From contig NZ_SAXU01000001.1 in NCBI RefSeq assembly GCF_008016455.1, positions 186,001-250,000 of the forward strand: DNA of 64,000 nt, given 5' to 3'. The DNA is from Brachyspira aalborgi. Its GTDB lineage: Bacteria > Spirochaetota > Brachyspiria > Brachyspirales > Brachyspiraceae. The translations under genes and the position numbers were made by a program. The notes under the pieces were generated by a model that was given only the letters and a program-made list of their open reading frames with translations, had not been told where the DNA came from and did no database searches. Below are positions 17,493 to 63,428 of this stretch, one piece after another (within the stretch, counting starts at the first letter, position 1; every line of letters starts with the position of its first letter).

Positions 17493-17555
17493 ATGTTTAG
17501 CTCGTCACTACACTACACTACACTACACTACACTACACTACACGCCGTATTATAA
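17493..17555 (+). CDS. Leader ORF of locus 1 (20 codons in present frame)
   Basis: ATG at 17493 with AGGA 7 bases before it and a consensus promoter 33 bases upstream. It reads MFSSS and then enters the CACTA repeat, giving Leu-His-Tyr-Thr-Thr repeats, and stops at TAA 17553-17555 inside the loop of the terminator-like hairpin. The +1 frame past the repeat (from 17542) is open for 39 codons through the hairpin and the RBS to a TGA at 17659-17661 that overlaps the ATG of the membrane-protein gene. Gain of one repeat or loss of two would join them. Confidence 0.75.
   Translation: MFSSSLHYTTLHYTTLHAVL
17506..17543 (+). repeat. Pentanucleotide repeat (CACTA)7.6
   Basis: Seven perfect CACTA units plus CAC. 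All five codons generated (CAC, TAC, ACT, ACA, CTA) are sense codons, so the tract is translatable in every frame on this strand, whereas the opposite strand would meet TAG. Expected to vary by slipped-strand mispairing. Confidence 0.97.
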
Positions 17556-17574
17556 ATTTTTTCGGCGATTTTTT
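17543..17574 (+). terminator. Terminator-like hairpin inside the 5' leader of locus 1
   Basis: CGCCG (17543-17547) pairs with CGGCG (17563-17567), 15-base loop, followed by A and six T. The stem starts on the last base of the repeat. It lies between promoter and gene, so it would act as an attenuator. Confidence 0.7.
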
Positions 17575-17657
17575 CATTGCAAAACTAAAGAATTATTTGA
17601 AACATTTAAACGCTTTCTCTTGCGTCTACAAAAATTAACTTTTAAGGAGATAACTCT

Positions 17658-19670
17658 ATGATATTTAAAAACAAAAAATTATTTCTAAAAATTTATATTC
17701 CGTTTGTGATTATTATTTCTATTGCTCTAATAGTTTTACAAATTCTTGGTTCTAAAAAGAGAATTGGTTATTTAACCGATTTTAATTTGAATATTGAAAG
17801 AACGCTAAAGTTAAATAATTTAGAAAACATTATGACAAATTATATTATAGATGACGAATTGGATGAAGAAGGCATAGAAAATTATATATTAACTAATGAA
17901 AATATAACAAATTATGTTCATCAATTTCGAATAAGATATTATGATAAAATTTTTAGGAATAACGATATTTACGGAGTTTATCCTGATTTATCAAACTTGC
18001 CTGATTATATGGAAAATGCGGAAATGGATGGAAACGGAAGTCCTTACGGAAATTTTATTTCTGACAAAAAAACGATTGAAGAAGAAAAAATTGATAATAT
18101 TAACTATATTTTGAAAATAAAAATAAATATTATTAGATATGTTATATATCTTATTCTAATATTATTAATAATTTACACGAAAATTTATTTTGAAAATATA
18201 AAAATATTTTTTAATGGCATTATTACAGTAATAAAGATAAAATCAAATGTGGATATAAAATTAAATTTAAGTATTATAATGATATTAGGCTATTTATATT
18301 TAATATTGCCTTATATGATTTTTCTTATAACTTGGGTAAAATATTTTATATCTATACCAAGTTTAATTTTAGTTATTATAGCTACCTACTTTACAATTAA
18401 AGATACAAAAAAACACTATAACATATCATATAATTTTAATTTATTTAGTTTGATATTATTATTTATTATTATTACAATATGGGTTATTATATTAGGAGTT
18501 GGCAATATATGTTTGCCAAGCGGAGATACTATTTATGGCAGATATGCTGTTTTTAAAGACTTAATAGAATTTCCTTTTCCAATTATCTATCCTGAAAATG
18601 GATACGGATTTGTATATTATTTCGCTCATTGGATTATTCCAGCGATATTTGGAAAGATATTTAATTATAATGTTGCAAATATTATTCTAATTTTATGGAC
18701 ATCTTTACCATTATTTTTAACTTTGATATTATTGTCAATATATTTAAATAAAATAAAAACCAAACAAATATTTATAATCTTTTTAATATTTATTTTATTT
18801 GTTCCTCCAAGTCTTATTTTTCATAAGGAAGGCAATTTTGGAAAAGGATTATTGACTGTTTTTGCTACGAGTTATATTAATATATTTAATCTTTTCAATC
18901 AAAGCCCAGCTATATATTTAATGTCGGTATTATTTTTACTTCAAAAAAATTCATTTAATTTTGCTTTTTTAGGATTATCCATTATGCTATATTCACCTTA
19001 TGCGACATTAGGAATTATACCTTTTATGATTGCAAAATCTATAATAGAAATAAGCGCAGATAAAAATGAATTAAAAAATATATTTAGCGTTAGCAATATA
19101 TTATCTTCAATATCAATATTTCCAATACTATTATTATATTTTTCATCAACAGCTACTAAATCCGATGGATTAAGATTTGTATTAACGGATTATCCCGTAT
19201 TATATCTAATAGAGCTATTTATGATTAAATTTGGAATTATATTTATTTTATTATTTAAATATAATAAGAAAAATTATTTGTTTTATGTTTCATTATTTAC
19301 TCTTATAGCGGTTTCATTAATACAATATTCGGGCGACCATAATTTCCATAGAACTAATATAACGGCATTATTCTTTTTAAGTATTTTTTTAACGGATTAT
19401 TTTATAAATCATTTTAATGAAAATTCTTTAAGAAAATATTTATTATTAATAATATTTATGATGGGTATATTTAGAGGTTATATTGAACTTGACCAAATAG
19501 ATTTTTATTTAAAACAAATTAAGACATTTGGAAAAGTAAATATGGAAGATATGGCGGTTAATAAAACATTTAATACTAAAAATAATAGTTGGCAGTTGAG
19601 AACAATAACATGTCAAGATATAGACAATTCAATATTTTTTAAATACATAGCAAAGGATAATAAAAAATGA
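17658..19670 (+). CDS. Polytopic membrane protein, possible GT-C-like glycan enzyme
   Basis: 670 residues: one span near residues 9-29, an extracytoplasmic segment to about 155, then roughly a dozen hydrophobic spans. GNICLPSGDTIYGRY and PENGYGFVYYFAHW lie at the start of the second block, similar in placement to the loop motifs of GT-C glycosyltransferases or related polymer-handling proteins, but I do not recognise a defined family. AAGGAG precedes the ATG by 8 bases. Its stop overlaps the ATG of the GT2 gene (ATGA), so the two are coupled. Role in surface glycan synthesis is inferred from the partner. Expression is probably controlled by the repeat leader. Confidence 0.65.
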   Translation: MIFKNKKLFLKIYIPFVIIISIALIVLQILGSKKRIGYLTDFNLNIERTLKLNNLENIMTNYIIDDELDEEGIENYILTNENITNYVHQFRIRYYDKIFRNNDIYGVYPDLSNLPDYMENAEMDGNGSPYGNFISDKKTIEEEKIDNINYILKIKINIIRYVIYLILILLIIYTKIYFENIKIFFNGIITVIKIKSNVDIKLNLSIIMILGYLYLILPYMIFLITWVKYFISIPSLILVIIATYFTIKDTKKHYNISYNFNLFSLILLFIIITIWVIILGVGNICLPSGDTIYGRYAVFKDLIEFPFPIIYPENGYGFVYYFAHWIIPAIFGKIFNYNVANIILILWTSLPLFLTLILLSIYLNKIKTKQIFIIFLIFILFVPPSLIFHKEGNFGKGLLTVFATSYINIFNLFNQSPAIYLMSVLFLLQKNSFNFAFLGLSIMLYSPYATLGIIPFMIAKSIIEISADKNELKNIFSVSNILSSISIFPILLLYFSSTATKSDGLRFVLTDYPVLYLIELFMIKFGIIFILLFKYNKKNYLFYVSLFTLIAVSLIQYSGDHNFHRTNITALFFLSIFLTDYFINHFNENSLRKYLLLIIFMMGIFRGYIELDQIDFYLKQIKTFGKVNMEDMAVNKTFNTKNNSWQLRTITCQDIDNSIFFKYIAKDNKK

Positions 19671-26398: not shown

Positions 26399-26433
26399 TT
26401 GACATAAATTTTAAGATATTGTAAAATATTTAT
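26399..26433 (+). promoter_or_regulatory. Promoter of repeat-leader locus 2
   Basis: TTGACA (26399-26404), 17-base spacer, TAAAAT (26422-26427). The ATG of the leader ORF at 26434 is 7 bases after the -10 box, at the expected transcription start. Confidence 0.8.
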
Positions 26434-26508
26434 ATGCTTGATTTTGTAATGAATAAAATAAATTTGCGCTCTTGCAATTCAATTCAATTCAATTCAATTC
26501 AAGCATAA
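26434..26508 (+). CDS. Leader ORF of locus 2 (24 codons in present frame)
   Basis: Reads MLDFVMNKINLRSC, then the AATTC repeat (Asn-Ser-Ile-Gln-Phe), then Ala and TAA at 26506-26508, 14 bases before the hairpin. No Shine-Dalgarno is present; the position at +1 suggests a leaderless mRNA (an in-frame ATG at 26449 is the alternative). Past the repeat the +1 frame (from 26501) is open for 29 codons through the hairpin to TGA at 26588-26590, overlapping the FkbM gene's ATG. Gain of one unit or loss of two would connect them. Confidence 0.6.
   Translation: MLDFVMNKINLRSCNSIQFNSIQA
26476..26502 (+). repeat. Pentanucleotide repeat (AATTC)5.4
   Basis: Five perfect AATTC units plus AA, the shortest of the four tracts. 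All codons produced (AAT, TCA, ATT, CAA, TTC) are sense; the complementary strand would meet TGA. Confidence 0.95.
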
Positions 26509-26520
26509 TTTTTGCATAAT

Positions 26521-26546
26521 TCCTATTTTCTTTAATAGGGCTTTTT
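26521..26546 (+). terminator. Terminator-like hairpin inside the 5' leader of locus 2
   Basis: CCTATT (26522-26527) pairs with AATAGG (26534-26539), extended by a T-G pair, with a 6-base loop, then GC and five T. It lies 40 bases upstream of the FkbM gene, so it would attenuate that gene. Confidence 0.65.
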
Positions 26547-26586
26547 CTATTGCATTTTTTAATATTTTACATTTTAGGAGAATTCT

Positions 26587-27630
26587 ATGACTTCAAAAAC
26601 TATTGATAATATCGTTTGGTTTATTCCATCTAGAAAATTAAGAGATAATATCAGAGATTATATGAATTTTATATATAATAAAATTAATGAAATAAACAAA
26701 CCAATTCGAGCTTGGGATAGGTATCTTTTTATTCTTTTTAGAGAAGATATAAAAAATGACGCTAATTTTTATCAAAAATATTTGAATTTAATTAAAAATT
26801 TAGATAAAGAAAGCGTAGAAATTGTTATTGGAATATTATCCAAAATTACAAATTATAATAATATTGAAGACGATATTTATTTTTCGCGTAAAGAATCGAA
26901 AAGATTAAACGATTTATACGAAGAATTTAATAACAAAATAATAAAAATAAATGAAGAATTATTTATATACGATAAATATATTTTACCAAAAAACCAATTT
27001 GAGATTGAAGCTTTTTACGGAAAATACGGAATGGATTATGTAAAAAATTTAAATCAAGTTAAAAATAAAAATATAATTGATGCGGGAGCTTATATCGGAG
27101 ATTCTGCAATATTATTTTCCGATTATACAGATAAAAATGTTTACAGTTTTGAACCGTTTTTGCATCACTATAATATGATGTTGAAAACTATAGAATTAAA
27201 TAAAAAGAATAATATTATTCCCGTGAATATGGCTTTAGGCGATAGCAATAAAGAATTATCTCTATATTCAAACGGAGATTTAAATATGGGACTTTCAATA
27301 GAGAGAAATTCTGAACAATCCGATATTAATTGCATTGAGAATAAAGTAAAAATGGTAACTCTCGATAGTTATGTGAAAGAAAATAATATTGAAGTCGGAT
27401 TAATAAAAACGGATTTGGAAGGTTTTGAACAGCCGTTTTTGAAAGGAGCGATTGAGACTATAAAAGAACAAAAGCCCGTTTTAATAATAAGCATATATCA
27501 TAATTATAGCGACTTTTTTGAAATAAAACCAATGATAGAGAATTTAAATTTAGGTTATAAGTTTAAGATAATAGAACCTAAAGCACCAGAGAGTGCTATA
27601 GTTTCTACGCTTTTACTTGCAGAAGTATAA
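26587..27630 (+). CDS. FkbM-family SAM-dependent methyltransferase
   Basis: 347 residues. The C-terminal ~200 hold the FkbM Rossmann domain: IIDAGAYIGDSAILFSDY (SAM-binding), VYSFEPFLHHYNMMLKTI, NMALGD, MVTLDSY, LIKTDLEGFEQPFLKGA and PVLIISIYHN. The N-terminal ~130 residues are charged and helical. FkbM enzymes O-methylate sugars, and in surface-glycan settings methylate capping residues; the acceptor is unknown here. AGGAG precedes the ATG by 6 bases. The repeat leader upstream probably makes its expression variable. A short gap follows before an unrelated promoter-less small gene. Confidence 0.9.
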   Translation: MTSKTIDNIVWFIPSRKLRDNIRDYMNFIYNKINEINKPIRAWDRYLFILFREDIKNDANFYQKYLNLIKNLDKESVEIVIGILSKITNYNNIEDDIYFSRKESKRLNDLYEEFNNKIIKINEELFIYDKYILPKNQFEIEAFYGKYGMDYVKNLNQVKNKNIIDAGAYIGDSAILFSDYTDKNVYSFEPFLHHYNMMLKTIELNKKNNIIPVNMALGDSNKELSLYSNGDLNMGLSIERNSEQSDINCIENKVKMVTLDSYVKENNIEVGLIKTDLEGFEQPFLKGAIETIKEQKPVLIISIYHNYSDFFEIKPMIENLNLGYKFKIIEPKAPESAIVSTLLLAEV

Positions 27631-40207: not shown

Positions 40208-41212
40208 TTAAATTCCTGTGTAAATATCTCTAAACTTATCGAGCCATTTTTGACGATTCGATTCTACAAAATCTGGGTCGTCTTTTATTGAATAAATTTC
40301 AGTCATAGGTATTACGACTTCAGAGGAAGAAGCGTCCTTCCTTATAGCTCTTCTATTAACTTTATTAATAAGAATATTTTGAGCGTCTAAACTAACGCAA
40401 TAATCTATAAACTTTTTAGCGTTTTCTAAATTTTTAGCGCCTTTAATAATATAAACGCCTTCGGGTTTTGATATTACGCCCTCTTTCATATATATAACTT
40501 TTACGGGCGAACCTGAAACGACATAATTTATTCCGCCTTCTTCATAAGTTAAACCGACTGCATATTCTCCGTCCGCAACTCCTTTATAAACGGCAGAAGA
40601 ACCGCTTAATAATTTGCCGTCTAAATTCGCGCATAATTTTTTAACATAATCCCAACCTTTTTCAGGATTTCCATTTCCCATAGCGTAAAGCATATTAACC
40701 AAATGCTCGAAAGCGGAAGAGGAAGCCGCAGGGTCAGCCGCCGCTATTTTTCCTTTTAATGCTGGATTTAATAAATCCGCGTAGCCTTCAATTTTTATAT
40801 TTTTTGTTAAATTTGTATTAATCATAATAACGCTTGGAATAAGCGAAAATCTTGTAAAATTTCCCTCTTCGTTTTGAAATTCTTCAAATATATTAATTTC
40901 ATTTGTAGAAATATAACTTTCAAACAATTCGCCTTTTGATTTGACGCTGTTTAAAGTTCCGCCCCAAAGAATATCGCCTAAAGGATTGGTTTTTTCTGCC
41001 TCTATTCTTTTAAGCAATTCTCCCGTTCCTGCAGTTACAACTTCAACGCTTATTTTAGGATTTTTTAATTTGAAATCGTCTAAAATAGTATTCATTAAAT
41101 CTAACGGATGCGAACAGTATATTATTAACTCTTCTTTATCCGAACTTTTGCTTTGCGAACATGATAATATAAATATCGCAATAAATAAAATAATTAAATT
41201 AAGTTTTCTCAT
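40208..41212 (-). CDS. bitA: Iron-binding lipoprotein, first gene of the bit operon
   Basis: 334 residues with lipobox Cys18 (FILSCSQSKSS) and the same binding-protein fold as the next two genes (ELIIYCSHPLDLMNTILDDFKLKNPKI; SGSSAVYKGVADGEYAVGLTYEEGG). AAGGAG lies 6 bases before the ATG, and the ATG overlaps a TGA (ATGA) that ends the +1 frame of the upstream repeat leader. As the first gene of an apparently five-gene unit, its leader would affect the whole importer. Confidence 0.9.
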   Translation of the reverse strand: MRKLNLIILFIAIFILSCSQSKSSDKEELIIYCSHPLDLMNTILDDFKLKNPKISVEVVTAGTGELLKRIEAEKTNPLGDILWGGTLNSVKSKGELFESYISTNEINIFEEFQNEEGNFTRFSLIPSVIMINTNLTKNIKIEGYADLLNPALKGKIAAADPAASSSAFEHLVNMLYAMGNGNPEKGWDYVKKLCANLDGKLLSGSSAVYKGVADGEYAVGLTYEEGGINYVVSGSPVKVIYMKEGVISKPEGVYIIKGAKNLENAKKFIDYCVSLDAQNILINKVNRRAIRKDASSSEVVIPMTEIYSIKDDPDFVESNRQKWLDKFRDIYTGI

Positions 41213-41241
41213 AACTTAACTCCTTGAAAATATTTTTTTAT

Positions 41242-41270
41242 AAAAAGCGTTTTTTTAAGGAATAAACGCC
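41242..41270 (-). terminator. Terminator-like hairpin inside the 5' leader of locus 3
   Basis: Minus strand GCGTTT (41269-41264) pairs with AAACGC (41252-41247), with an additional outer G-T pair, 11-base loop, then five T. It is 30 bases from the bitA start and would work as an attenuator. Confidence 0.7.
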
Positions 41271-41341
41271 AATTATCATTGGAATAGATATTATATAGAA
41301 ATAGATTAATCGATAAATATAATAAAACTTTAAAAATGAAT

Positions 41342-41443
41342 TTATAGGATAGGATAGGATAGGATAGGATAGGATAGGATAGGATAGGATAGGATAGGAT
41401 AGGATAGGATAGGATACCTACCGCATAAGTTTATTAAAGTCAT
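41342..41443 (-). CDS. Leader ORF of locus 3 (33 codons in present frame)
   Basis: ATG at 41443 with AAAGGAA 8-9 bases before it. It reads MTLINLCGRYP and then Ile-Leu-Ser-Tyr-Pro repeats from (ATCCT)14, and stops at TAA 41344-41342 directly after the repeat. The +1 frame beyond (AAA from 41343) is open for 44 codons through the hairpin and RBS, ending in a TGA (41211-41209) that overlaps bitA's ATG. Gain of one unit or loss of two would place the leader in that frame. Confidence 0.78.
   Translation of the reverse strand: MTLINLCGRYPILSYPILSYPILSYPILSYPIL
41346..41415 (-). repeat. Pentanucleotide repeat (ATCCT)14
   Basis: Fourteen perfect copies, 70 bases (AGGAT on the + strand), the longest tract in the window. 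The codons ATC, CTA, TCC, TAT and CCT are all sense; the opposite strand would meet TAG. Confidence 0.98.
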
Positions 41444-50620: not shown

Positions 50621-51016
50621 TTATTTTTTAGTAATATCTAAAGTTAATGGACTTTCTCCTTCTTGTCCCATTATTAAATTTCCTTGAGTATCGCTAATAA
50701 AAACAAGAGTAAATTTTCCACTACTGCTACTGTCACTATACGAAGCGGTATAAGTCGTGTCGCTAACTCTTGTTACAGAAGACGAAGGAATTGTAGTATC
50801 GCCACTCTCTCCTTTTATAGTAAAAGAACCGTCAGTATTTATTGTAAGTAAATGCATTTCAGTTTGCACTAGTTTTCCATACCAATTACCAGCATAATAA
50901 GATAATGTTCTTCCTTCTGTTCCTGTTTTATTCTTATTATCGCAACTTATTGAAAATAGAGCGATTAAAGATAAGATAATTAATAATAGATAAAAATTTT
51001 TTCTTTGTTCTTTCAT
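50621..51016 (-). CDS. Small lipoprotein, repeat-leader locus 4
   Basis: 131 residues from ATG 51016 (AGGAG 9 bases before it). A hydrophobic signal ending in lipobox FSISC (Cys25) is followed by a charged linker (DNKNKTGTEG) and a beta-rich domain (AGNWYGKLVQTEMHLLTINTDGSFTIKGES; SGKFTLVFISDTQGNLIMGQEG) like small lipocalin/META-type lipoproteins. Its reading frame is also open upstream for 70 codons through the hairpin to the repeat, so a start further up would be possible in frame but without a usual RBS. Variable expression through the leader is inferred. Confidence 0.75.
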   Translation of the reverse strand: MKEQRKNFYLLLIILSLIALFSISCDNKNKTGTEGRTLSYYAGNWYGKLVQTEMHLLTINTDGSFTIKGESGDTTIPSSSVTRVSDTTYTASYSDSSSSGKFTLVFISDTQGNLIMGQEGESPLTLDITKK

Positions 51017-51147
51017 TATAGAACTCTCCTTTTGATATTTATTAAAAACATTTAAATAAATGTTTCTCGCGAAATTAAAATTTTGATTGAATTGAAATAA
51101 TCCAAATATTAGTTGTTTATTTGAGAAAAATTTTTGCAATAAAATTG

Positions 51148-51171
51148 AAGCGCTTAAAAATTTAAACGCTT
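51148..51171 (-). terminator. Terminator-like hairpin inside the 5' leader of locus 4
   Basis: Minus strand: a 10-bp stem (AAGCGTTTAA with TTAAGCGCTT, one G-T pair) closed by a 4-base loop, followed by CAATTTTATTG. The T-run is weak (four T), so termination may be partial. It lies ~130 bases from the lipoprotein ATG. Confidence 0.6.
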
Positions 51172-51200
51172 TTGAAATTTGTAATATATAGAAATTTAAA

Positions 51201-51305
51201 TTATTGTTTAGAAGATAATAATAGCGTTCTGTTCTGTTCTGTTCTGTTCTGTTCTGTTCTGTTCTGTTCTGTTCTGTTCTGTTCTAGATTATTCAAGTTA
51301 AACAT
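51201..51305 (-). CDS. Leader ORF of locus 4 (34 codons in present frame)
   Basis: ATG at 51305, or TTG at 51296 in the same frame with AAGG 9 bases before it. It reads MFNLNNLEQN and then Arg-Thr-Glu-Gln-Asn repeats, and stops at TAA 51203-51201, before the hairpin. The +1 frame (from 51226) is open for 70 codons through the hairpin and straight into the lipoprotein in its own frame, unlike the ATGA overlap of the other three loci. Gain of one repeat or loss of two would join them. A 7-bp hairpin (AACCGAA/TTCGGTT, 51333-51311) precedes the start. Confidence 0.65.
   Translation of the reverse strand: MFNLNNLEQNRTEQNRTEQNRTEQNRTLLLSSKQ
51226..51285 (-). repeat. Pentanucleotide repeat (AGAAC)12
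   Basis: Twelve perfect AGAAC units, 60 bases (GTTCT on the + strand). Codons AGA, ACA, GAA, CAG, AAC are all sense. Here the complementary strand is also free of stops. Confidence 0.97.
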
Positions 51306-62015: not shown

Positions 62016-63428
62016 TCAATTAGAAATATCCAACTTTTCAAGCTTTTTAATATTTGTAATGTTTTTAGGCGCTTTTTTAATTTTATTTAAACTTAAATCT
62101 ATTTCTTTTAAATTAATCAAACTGCATAATTCTTTTGGGAATTCTTTAAATTTATTATCCGCTAAATAAATTGTGTTCAATTTTTTAAGTTTATTAATAT
62201 TTTTAGGTAATTTCTTTAATTTATTACGGCTTGCATCCAAATCTTTTAATTTATTTAAATTAGATATTTTCTCACTTAAATTTTTGATTTTATTATCGGA
62301 TATATTTAATACTTTTAAATTTTTTAAATTATATAATTTTTCTGGCAATTCTGTTAAATTATTAAAAGATAAATCAAGCTCCTTTAACTTTTTAAGTTTT
62401 TCTATATCTTTGGGTAAATTATTTAATTTATTACCGCTTAAATCGAGTTTTCGTAAATTAATTAAATTGCATAATTCTTTTGGGAATTCCGCTAAATCCT
62501 TATTAGAAAAATCAAGCTCTTTTAAGTTCTTAAGTTTTGCCATATTTTTAGGAAATATTTTTATTTCATTCCTATCTATATCCAATATTTCTAAATTTTC
62601 CAAATCGCATATTCCTTCTGGCAAACTTTTTAATTTATTATCTCTTAAATCAAGTTCTTTCAATTTTTTTAATTTAGCTATATCTTTGGGTAAATTATTT
62701 AATTTATTACCGCTTAAATCGAGTTTTCGTAAATTAATTAAATTGCATAATTCTTCTGGCAACTCTTTTAAATTGTTAAAATATGAATTAAGTTCTTTCA
62801 ATTTTTTAAGCTTTGCTATATTTCTGGGTAATATTCTTATTTTATTGCAATTTATATTCAGTATTTCTAAATTTTCTAAATTGCCTATTTCATCTGGTAA
62901 ACTTTTTAATCTACTACTGTCTAATTTAAGTTCCTTCAAATTTCTTAATTTAGATATATCTTTTGGCAGTTTATCAATCTCATCAGAGCTAAACTCAAGA
63001 TATTCTAAATTAACTAAATCGCATAATTCTTTTGGAAATTCCGTAAGGTTATTATGGGCTAAACGAACTCCTTTTAATTTTTTCAATTTATTTATTCCTT
63101 CTGACAACTTGTCAATTTTAACTCCCCGTTTTGAGCCGACTATAATAAGTTCTTCTAAATTTTTCAAATTATATATTTCTTCGGGAATGGTTTCTCTATT
63201 TATTATAATTAATTTTTTAATATTTTTAAGTTTAAAAAATTCTTTTGGAATATAATCATAATTAATAGTAAAATAAGTGAGATTTAATAATTTTTCTTTT
63301 GTAATCTTTTTATAATCTACTATTTTATAATCTCCTAAATATTTTATACCGTTGTCTTTAATCCATTTTTTAATTATTTCAAAATCTTTATCAGTCAAAG
63401 TTTCTTTTTTAATTGTCGTATTTTTCAT
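62016..63428 (-). CDS. Leucine-rich-repeat protein
   Basis: 470 residues, nearly all made of about 18 LRR units of 23 residues (LxxLKELDLSxNxLxxLPxxI), the LPxxI type found in bacterial and plant LRRs. A short N-terminal region (~1-60) precedes them. No signal peptide or membrane span is visible. An ~80-base block at 62402 recurs at 62678, 276 bases away (exactly four repeat units), so it was recently duplicated. AAGGA precedes the ATG by 9 bases. Function unknown; protein binding is assumed. Confidence 0.9.
   Translation of the reverse strand: MKNTTIKKETLTDKDFEIIKKWIKDNGIKYLGDYKIVDYKKITKEKLLNLTYFTINYDYIPKEFFKLKNIKKLIIINRETIPEEIYNLKNLEELIIVGSKRGVKIDKLSEGINKLKKLKGVRLAHNNLTEFPKELCDLVNLEYLEFSSDEIDKLPKDISKLRNLKELKLDSSRLKSLPDEIGNLENLEILNINCNKIRILPRNIAKLKKLKELNSYFNNLKELPEELCNLINLRKLDLSGNKLNNLPKDIAKLKKLKELDLRDNKLKSLPEGICDLENLEILDIDRNEIKIFPKNMAKLKNLKELDFSNKDLAEFPKELCNLINLRKLDLSGNKLNNLPKDIEKLKKLKELDLSFNNLTELPEKLYNLKNLKVLNISDNKIKNLSEKISNLNKLKDLDASRNKLKKLPKNINKLKKLNTIYLADNKFKEFPKELCSLINLKEIDLSLNKIKKAPKNITNIKKLEKLDISN

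Follow-up and report, generated by a model that had tools for sequence, protein, structure and literature searches.

Can a pentanucleotide repeat that lies outside an intact methyltransferase gene switch the expression of that gene, and if so, by what route? The question is raised by a locus in the window, by which we mean the whole stretch of 64,000 nucleotides analysed here, on the main contig of a Brachyspira genome of 2.5 Mb. Between a divergent gene encoding DUF1858, DUF438 and hemerythrin domains and a gene encoding an FkbM domain lie a promoter, a leader, a repeat tract, a hairpin and an AGGAG. The features of the locus are the following:

26399–26427, forward strand: sigma-70 promoter TTGACA-N17-TAAAAT (-35 at 26399–26404, 17-bp spacer, -10 at 26422–26427), score 11/12
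26434–26508, forward strand: leader open reading frame in its present form, 24 codons plus TAA at 26506; same geometry in the paralogue and most orthologues
26475–26502, forward strand: (CAATT)5.6 tract inside the leader, 28 nt, the proposed switch
26501–26590, forward strand: ON-frame extension of the leader, 29 codons; its TGA (26588–26590) overlaps the gene ATG at 26587
26517–26519, forward strand: third-frame stop reached with 4.6 or 7.6 units, immediately 5' of the hairpin; expected to be partial or OFF
26521–26546, forward strand: hairpin UCCUAUU-6-AAUAGGG plus five T, a weak terminator candidate from folding, shuffles and orthologue pairing
26550–26554, forward strand: TTGCA motif 3' of the hairpin, shared by many leaders
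26575–26577, forward strand: TAG four codons upstream of the gene's ATG and in frame with it
26576–26580, forward strand: Shine-Dalgarno sequence of the gene, AGGAG
26587–27630, forward strand: FkbM-type methyltransferase, 347 aa, intact (PF05050, E 1.2e-14)

An earlier sequence-only reading of this DNA had recorded the repeat as (AATTC)5.4, which is the same tract phased differently, and all of its coordinates hold. The tract far exceeds chance, with 3 occurrences of the 15-mer against 0.08 expected. It had also been called the shortest tract, which is true among the four in the window and not in the genome, where tracts of 4.4 to 5.2 copies are found elsewhere; the lower switching rate suggested for it would be conjecture. 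The assignment of the gene to the FkbM methyltransferases is borne out by the PF05050 domain, which scores 55.3 bits against a curated cut-off of 22.7 and is covered over positions 1–172 of 173; the open frame amounts to 350 aa for the 347-aa gene. The nearest named relative found is in B. catarrhinii, and the match in the PDB is a weak one to 2py6, a distant FkbM structure and the sole one there. Judging from family and context, the enzyme likely modifies a surface glycan. A search for known structured RNAs at the locus returned only a chance-level match to SmY (E 0.88), which was rejected.

The protein begins with a module of the form ~IDNIVWxIPxRKxRDxxR (window 26587–26650), unnamed by Pfam, that is also seen in L042, L045, L046, L048, L049 and L050. 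It is common to otherwise unrelated leader-linked enzymes (FkbM, GT10, GT11, TylF and epimerase-like) and may tether them to a shared partner or to the membrane. Elsewhere in the window, tandem repeats of ~69, 138 and 276 bp at 62316–63043 probably belong to a leucine-rich-repeat gene (62016–63428, minus strand).

The effect of the tract on the leader can be computed for each number of units. With 2.6, 5.6, 8.6 or 11.6 units, the leader stops at 26506, upstream of the hairpin; with 4.6, 7.6 or 10.6 units it stops at 26517, at the hairpin's foot; and with 3.6, 6.6 or 9.6 units it is open to the TGA at 26588 that overlaps the gene ATG. This agrees with what had been read from the letters, namely that the present frame ends two codons after the tract (TAA 26506) and that the +1 frame is open for 29 codons through CCTATT/AATAGG and five T to an ATGA overlap. 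A gain of one unit or a loss of two opens the frame to that TGA. Since the present 5.6 units lead to the stop at 26506, the sequenced clone is predicted to be OFF, and so is the paralogue with its 8.6 units. Two marks of pil1-type leaders are found here: the tract has a period that is not a multiple of 3 and lies within a short leader frame 5' of the gene, and the stops at 26506, 26517 and 26588 flank the hairpin (26521–26540), with one frame crossing it. Taken alone, the 29-codon open frame is unremarkable in AT-rich DNA, in which 53% of shuffles reach the gene start (P 0.53), and its single-locus significance was dropped.

The start of the leader is unusual as well. Just 6 nt separate the -10 box from the leader ATG (26434–26436), placing the A at the seventh base after TAAAAT, and a search upstream of this ATG found no Shine-Dalgarno sequence, both as first described. 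A -10 box ending 6–8 nt before an ATG without a Shine-Dalgarno sequence is found at this locus, in its paralogue and at L045:8283, L047:7211 and L048, with promoters scoring 11–12 out of 12; the same geometry is present in three of the four tandem copies in G006, and only 8 of 483 control reading frames score 11/12 in it. The proposal that the leader could be leaderless is strengthened by this recurrence, and the two features on which it rests, promoter geometry and lack of a Shine-Dalgarno sequence, are conserved; it stays a prediction about the transcript. Leaders of the CACTA type carry AGGA and have their promoter ~32 nt upstream, so there are two types of leader.

The observed anatomy, frames, recurrence and conservation are best explained by a frame-gated leader switch, a reading that we consider probable. 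The RNA would start at or beside the leader ATG at 26434, and such a leaderless 5' end would let a 70S ribosome load immediately on the nascent RNA. The leader would then be translated across the CAATT tract, in which unit changes by slipped-strand mispairing are expected to set the downstream frame. With 2.6, 5.6 or 8.6 units, the ribosome would halt at 26506, a little short of the hairpin, leaving the methyltransferase poorly expressed (the OFF state). With 3.6, 6.6 or 9.6 units, it would cross the hairpin to the TGA at the gene ATG (the ON state); its passage would keep the hairpin open and permit transcription read-through, and its delivery to the gene start could support coupled initiation. 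The amount of methyltransferase would vary while its sequence stays constant.

Evidence that such tracts differ in length comes from paralogues and cassettes, since one genome per species was compared. A paralogue in the same genome (at 288712), 88% identical and with an identical promoter sequence, has 8.6 units to the 5.6 seen here; the flanks differ at a handful of bases and the difference is exactly three units. A cassette comprising a Shine-Dalgarno sequence, a CACTA tract and a CGCCG/CGGCG hairpin stands ahead of different genes in ten copies, whose tracts range from 6.8 to 20 units; at six of the ten the frame now ends just 3' of the tract, and at the other four it continues. In other species, orthologues retain the promoter, leader and hairpin and have different units, among them AATAC, GCCAA, CCAAG and AAGTC, the tetramer AAGC (35 copies) and the heptamers CACAGCT and ACAATCA. 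Periods at leaders are thus 4, 5 and 7, and 3, 6 and 9 occur in none. The unit is replaced and the tract kept, from which it follows that selection holds a frame-shifting tract rather than its sequence. Good support for the suggested phase-variable leader thus comes from the architecture of the frames, the 8.6-unit paralogue and the orthologues with replaced units. No tracts were found near the more distant conserved FkbM genes of the genus (L011–L023).

The locus is one of four of its kind in the window (17506 CACTA, 26475 CAATT, 41344 CCTAT and 51226 AGAAC). The three sister leaders are:

17493–17661, forward strand: locus 1, ATG at 17493, (CACTA)7.6 at 17506–17543, hairpin; frame ends at the ATGA of the gene at 17658; the cassette of which the genome has ten copies
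41209–41443, reverse strand: locus 3, (CCTAT)14.6 at 41344–41416, GCGTTT/AAACGC hairpin; ATGA overlap with a solute-binding lipoprotein gene (40208–41212)
51014–51305, reverse strand: locus 4, (AGAAC)12 at 51226–51285, hairpin of 10 bp; ON frame that reads into a lipoprotein gene (50621–51016) in register

The computed frames of locus 1 are OFF. The number of tracts in the genome was estimated from a random sample of 20 spread-out 20-kb stretches. These 400 kb contain 12 tracts, 11 of them pentamers and one a heptamer, with a period of 3, 6 or 9 in none; nearly all are at leaders. Extrapolation gives ~75 tracts per genome (Poisson range roughly 40–130). The four relatives sampled have ~3 tracts per 400 kb away from FkbM clusters. 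The genes behind the leaders include FkbM, GT8, GT10, GT11, GT61, TylF and other methyltransferases, radical SAM enzymes, lipoproteins and outer-membrane barrels. In two leaders, the assembly has N gaps between two runs of one repeat unit (L045:4702–4884 and L045:8325–8423), so their assembled lengths need not be the true ones.

It is the set of loci that gives the open frame its weight. Of 25 promoter-proximal tracts in this genome, 24 have a frame that runs without a stop to the start of the gene behind it, compared with 4.6 expected from dinucleotide shuffles and with 15–27% of control 5' regions (n=171). Past the hairpin, the ON frame is open to the gene for 347 codons summed over 15 loci, and control-region codons are ~9.5% stops, giving a P of about 1e-11 even with two frames allowed; some of the 15 loci share ancestry, so this value is only a guide. 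In 20 of the 25 loci, the ON frame ends between -5 and +20 nt from the gene ATG, and at four lipoprotein or barrel loci (51226, L081, L086 and L091) it passes into the gene in register, meeting no stop around the start. An ATGA overlap occurs at 10 of the 25; as proof of coupling it was set aside as weak, because 61% of genes start with ATGA and the count barely exceeds what this alone would produce. Where a leader ATG could be assigned (23 leaders), about 3 leaders are now in the full ON frame, and the sequenced population would therefore be mostly OFF.

The hairpin is more variable. At this locus (core stem CCTATT 26522–26527 and AATAGG 26534–26539, with TTTTT at 26542–26546), it is weak (-5.9 kcal/mol, z -4.7), was not called by a strict terminator scan and scores p=0.06 as a terminator within its own region. 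Stronger stems occupy this site in orthologues: ACCCUAUC/GAUAGGGU folds at -11.9, and L058 has a 12-bp terminator at -14.0. In an alignment of ten related sequences, which makes the evidence modest, the stem pairs at 83% in register versus 27–51% when the arms are slid, and its innermost pair shows a two-sided change; two rows (G001a and GT8) are shifted by one position in the MAFFT alignment, which lowers the pair counts. The paralogous leaders of locus 4 and L081 differ by two-sided changes at two stem pairs (A-U to G-C and G-C to A-U). Over 24 loci, hairpin-plus-T scores exceed those of shuffles (Fisher p 1.5e-5), with only 7 of the 24 below 0.05 individually. The hairpin of locus 1 has a 15-nt loop, beyond the loop limit of the first automatic search, and none was found at L046, L047 and L093:15842. 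Shortly 3' of the T run, TTGCA is present in 19 of 35 leaders (4.9 in shuffles), in differing frames, and it follows none of 29 ordinary gene-end terminators; its recurrence is partly due to shared ancestry.

Within the leader switch, what would the ribosome do? One possibility is that translational coupling dominates, with the leader ribosome opening the Shine-Dalgarno region or re-initiating at the ATGA and the hairpin minor. The open frame extending far past the hairpin, the weakness of the hairpin here and the clustering of ON-frame ends around the gene ATG speak for it; the four loci whose ON frame is in register with the gene speak against re-initiation as a necessary step and fit ribosome passage better, and strong terminators are present in relatives (L058 and L060). 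The other is that translation-controlled attenuation of transcription dominates, exactly as at pil1 of S. gallolyticus, where GCAGA repeats lie in a leader peptide, deletion of the terminator raised pilus-gene transcription 11-fold and mutation of the leader start codon lowered it (PMC3894217). Besides this direct precedent, it is favoured by the excess over shuffles of hairpins with T runs between tract and gene at many loci, and by the preserved stem pairing with the paired changes between locus 4 and L081. Attenuation gives no reason for an open frame beyond the hairpin, which is weak at this locus and missing at some others, and in the CACTA family the OFF stop lies within the hairpin loop, which is awkward for attenuation in pure form. 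The open frame and the weak or absent hairpins suggest that attenuation is not the whole story; together with the in-frame loci, they lead us to weight the two equally within the leader-gating model; dominance by either one is a tentative proposition.

Three explanations dispense with leader gating. That tract length tunes the promoter or the spacing of the leader RNA, and not the frame, is highly unlikely: tracts in 5' regions can act in this manner in other bacteria, but this tract lies beyond both promoter and start point, no period is a multiple of 3, and the excess of open frames would be left unexplained. An AT-rich genome might be thought to accumulate neutral microsatellites with no regulatory role; such a reading is extremely unlikely, given that all tracts in the random 400 kb are pentamers or heptamers, almost every one at a leader, and that tracts persist across species as their units are replaced. 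Scarcely credible is a classical intragenic contingency locus, in which the true start would be upstream and the tract would frame-shift the enzyme. It is the commonest kind of repeat switch, and one frame does join the gene at locus 4, L081, L086 and L091; here, an AGGAG and an ATG belong to the gene itself, and the TAG at 26575, in the gene's frame 3' of the tract, separates the tract from the gene ATG. No unit number can therefore fuse leader to enzyme, and an intragenic switch is excluded at this locus.

Returning to the frame-gated leader switch, the locus looks like one case of a genome-wide system. Its cassettes are modular, with a promoter, a leader often predicted to be leaderless, a pentamer or heptamer tract, a hairpin and a frame open to the gene start. 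We lean, with some reserve, toward leader-gated repeat switching as the general phase-variation system of Brachyspira, in which dozens of such cassettes per genome precede unrelated genes for glycan enzymes, lipoproteins and barrels, expression depends on whether the leader reaches the gene start, and immediate loading of 70S ribosomes on a leaderless 5' end helps the ribosome keep pace with the polymerase. If this is true, gut spirochaetes have a large and so far undescribed combinatorial system of surface switching, a mechanism of one Streptococcus species becomes a general strategy, and many natural replicates are at hand for studying leader-controlled expression. Gene-finding pipelines would miss the system, because the tracts are in unannotated leaders and not in genes.

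Tracts of a second class lie at the very 3' ends of sugar-enzyme genes, each with a conserved sequence, TAATGTTTGAATA..., behind it (L041:14906–14949, L041:19309–19380, L043:4974–5067, L044:9575–9596, L044:10758–10782, L050:9931–9977 and L117:1459–1500). In one frame, this sequence adds a shared C-terminal tag, ~VMFEY(A/C/G)(F/Y)xx(A/T)A, a pattern found seven times in the genome. In other species (L055, L058 and L060), the shared tag is KKLQPML...AA instead and overlies a strong terminator.

How does the system compare with known ones? The pentamers of Neisseria opa and the tetramers of Haemophilus are the classical intragenic repeat contingency loci. They share with Brachyspira a slipped-strand repeat, a period that is not a multiple of 3, surface functions and reversibility; the Brachyspira tract differs in being outside the gene, in a separate leader, and its OFF state involves no truncated enzyme. 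Homologous FkbM methyltransferases of Helicobacter also have a hypermutable tract near the 5' end (G9 at L063:2837 and G12 at L065:2775), a poly-G homopolymer unlike the Brachyspira pentamer, a pattern consistent with phase variation of such enzymes having arisen convergently. The E. coli trp leader and its kin resemble the locus in that leader translation governs a hairpin 3' of it, whereas the Brachyspira leader has no amino-acid sensing and its input would be a heritable change of frame. No description of repeat phase variation in Brachyspira was found in the literature searched, and within that literature the system looks like one of a kind known from one Streptococcus and new for spirochaetes. 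The closest likeness is to pil1 and pil3 (Danne et al. 2014, PMC3894217), where a pentamer tract lies in a leader frame 5' of a hairpin, the frame sets whether translation ends before or beyond it, and the gene is unaltered. That system comprises two pilus loci of Streptococcus with one repeat unit, a terminator shown to work and a leader started from a ribosome-binding site, whereas the spirochaete has dozens of loci with many units, leaders often predicted to be leaderless, a frame open to the gene start, a weak hairpin at this locus and mainly glycan enzymes and lipoproteins as targets.
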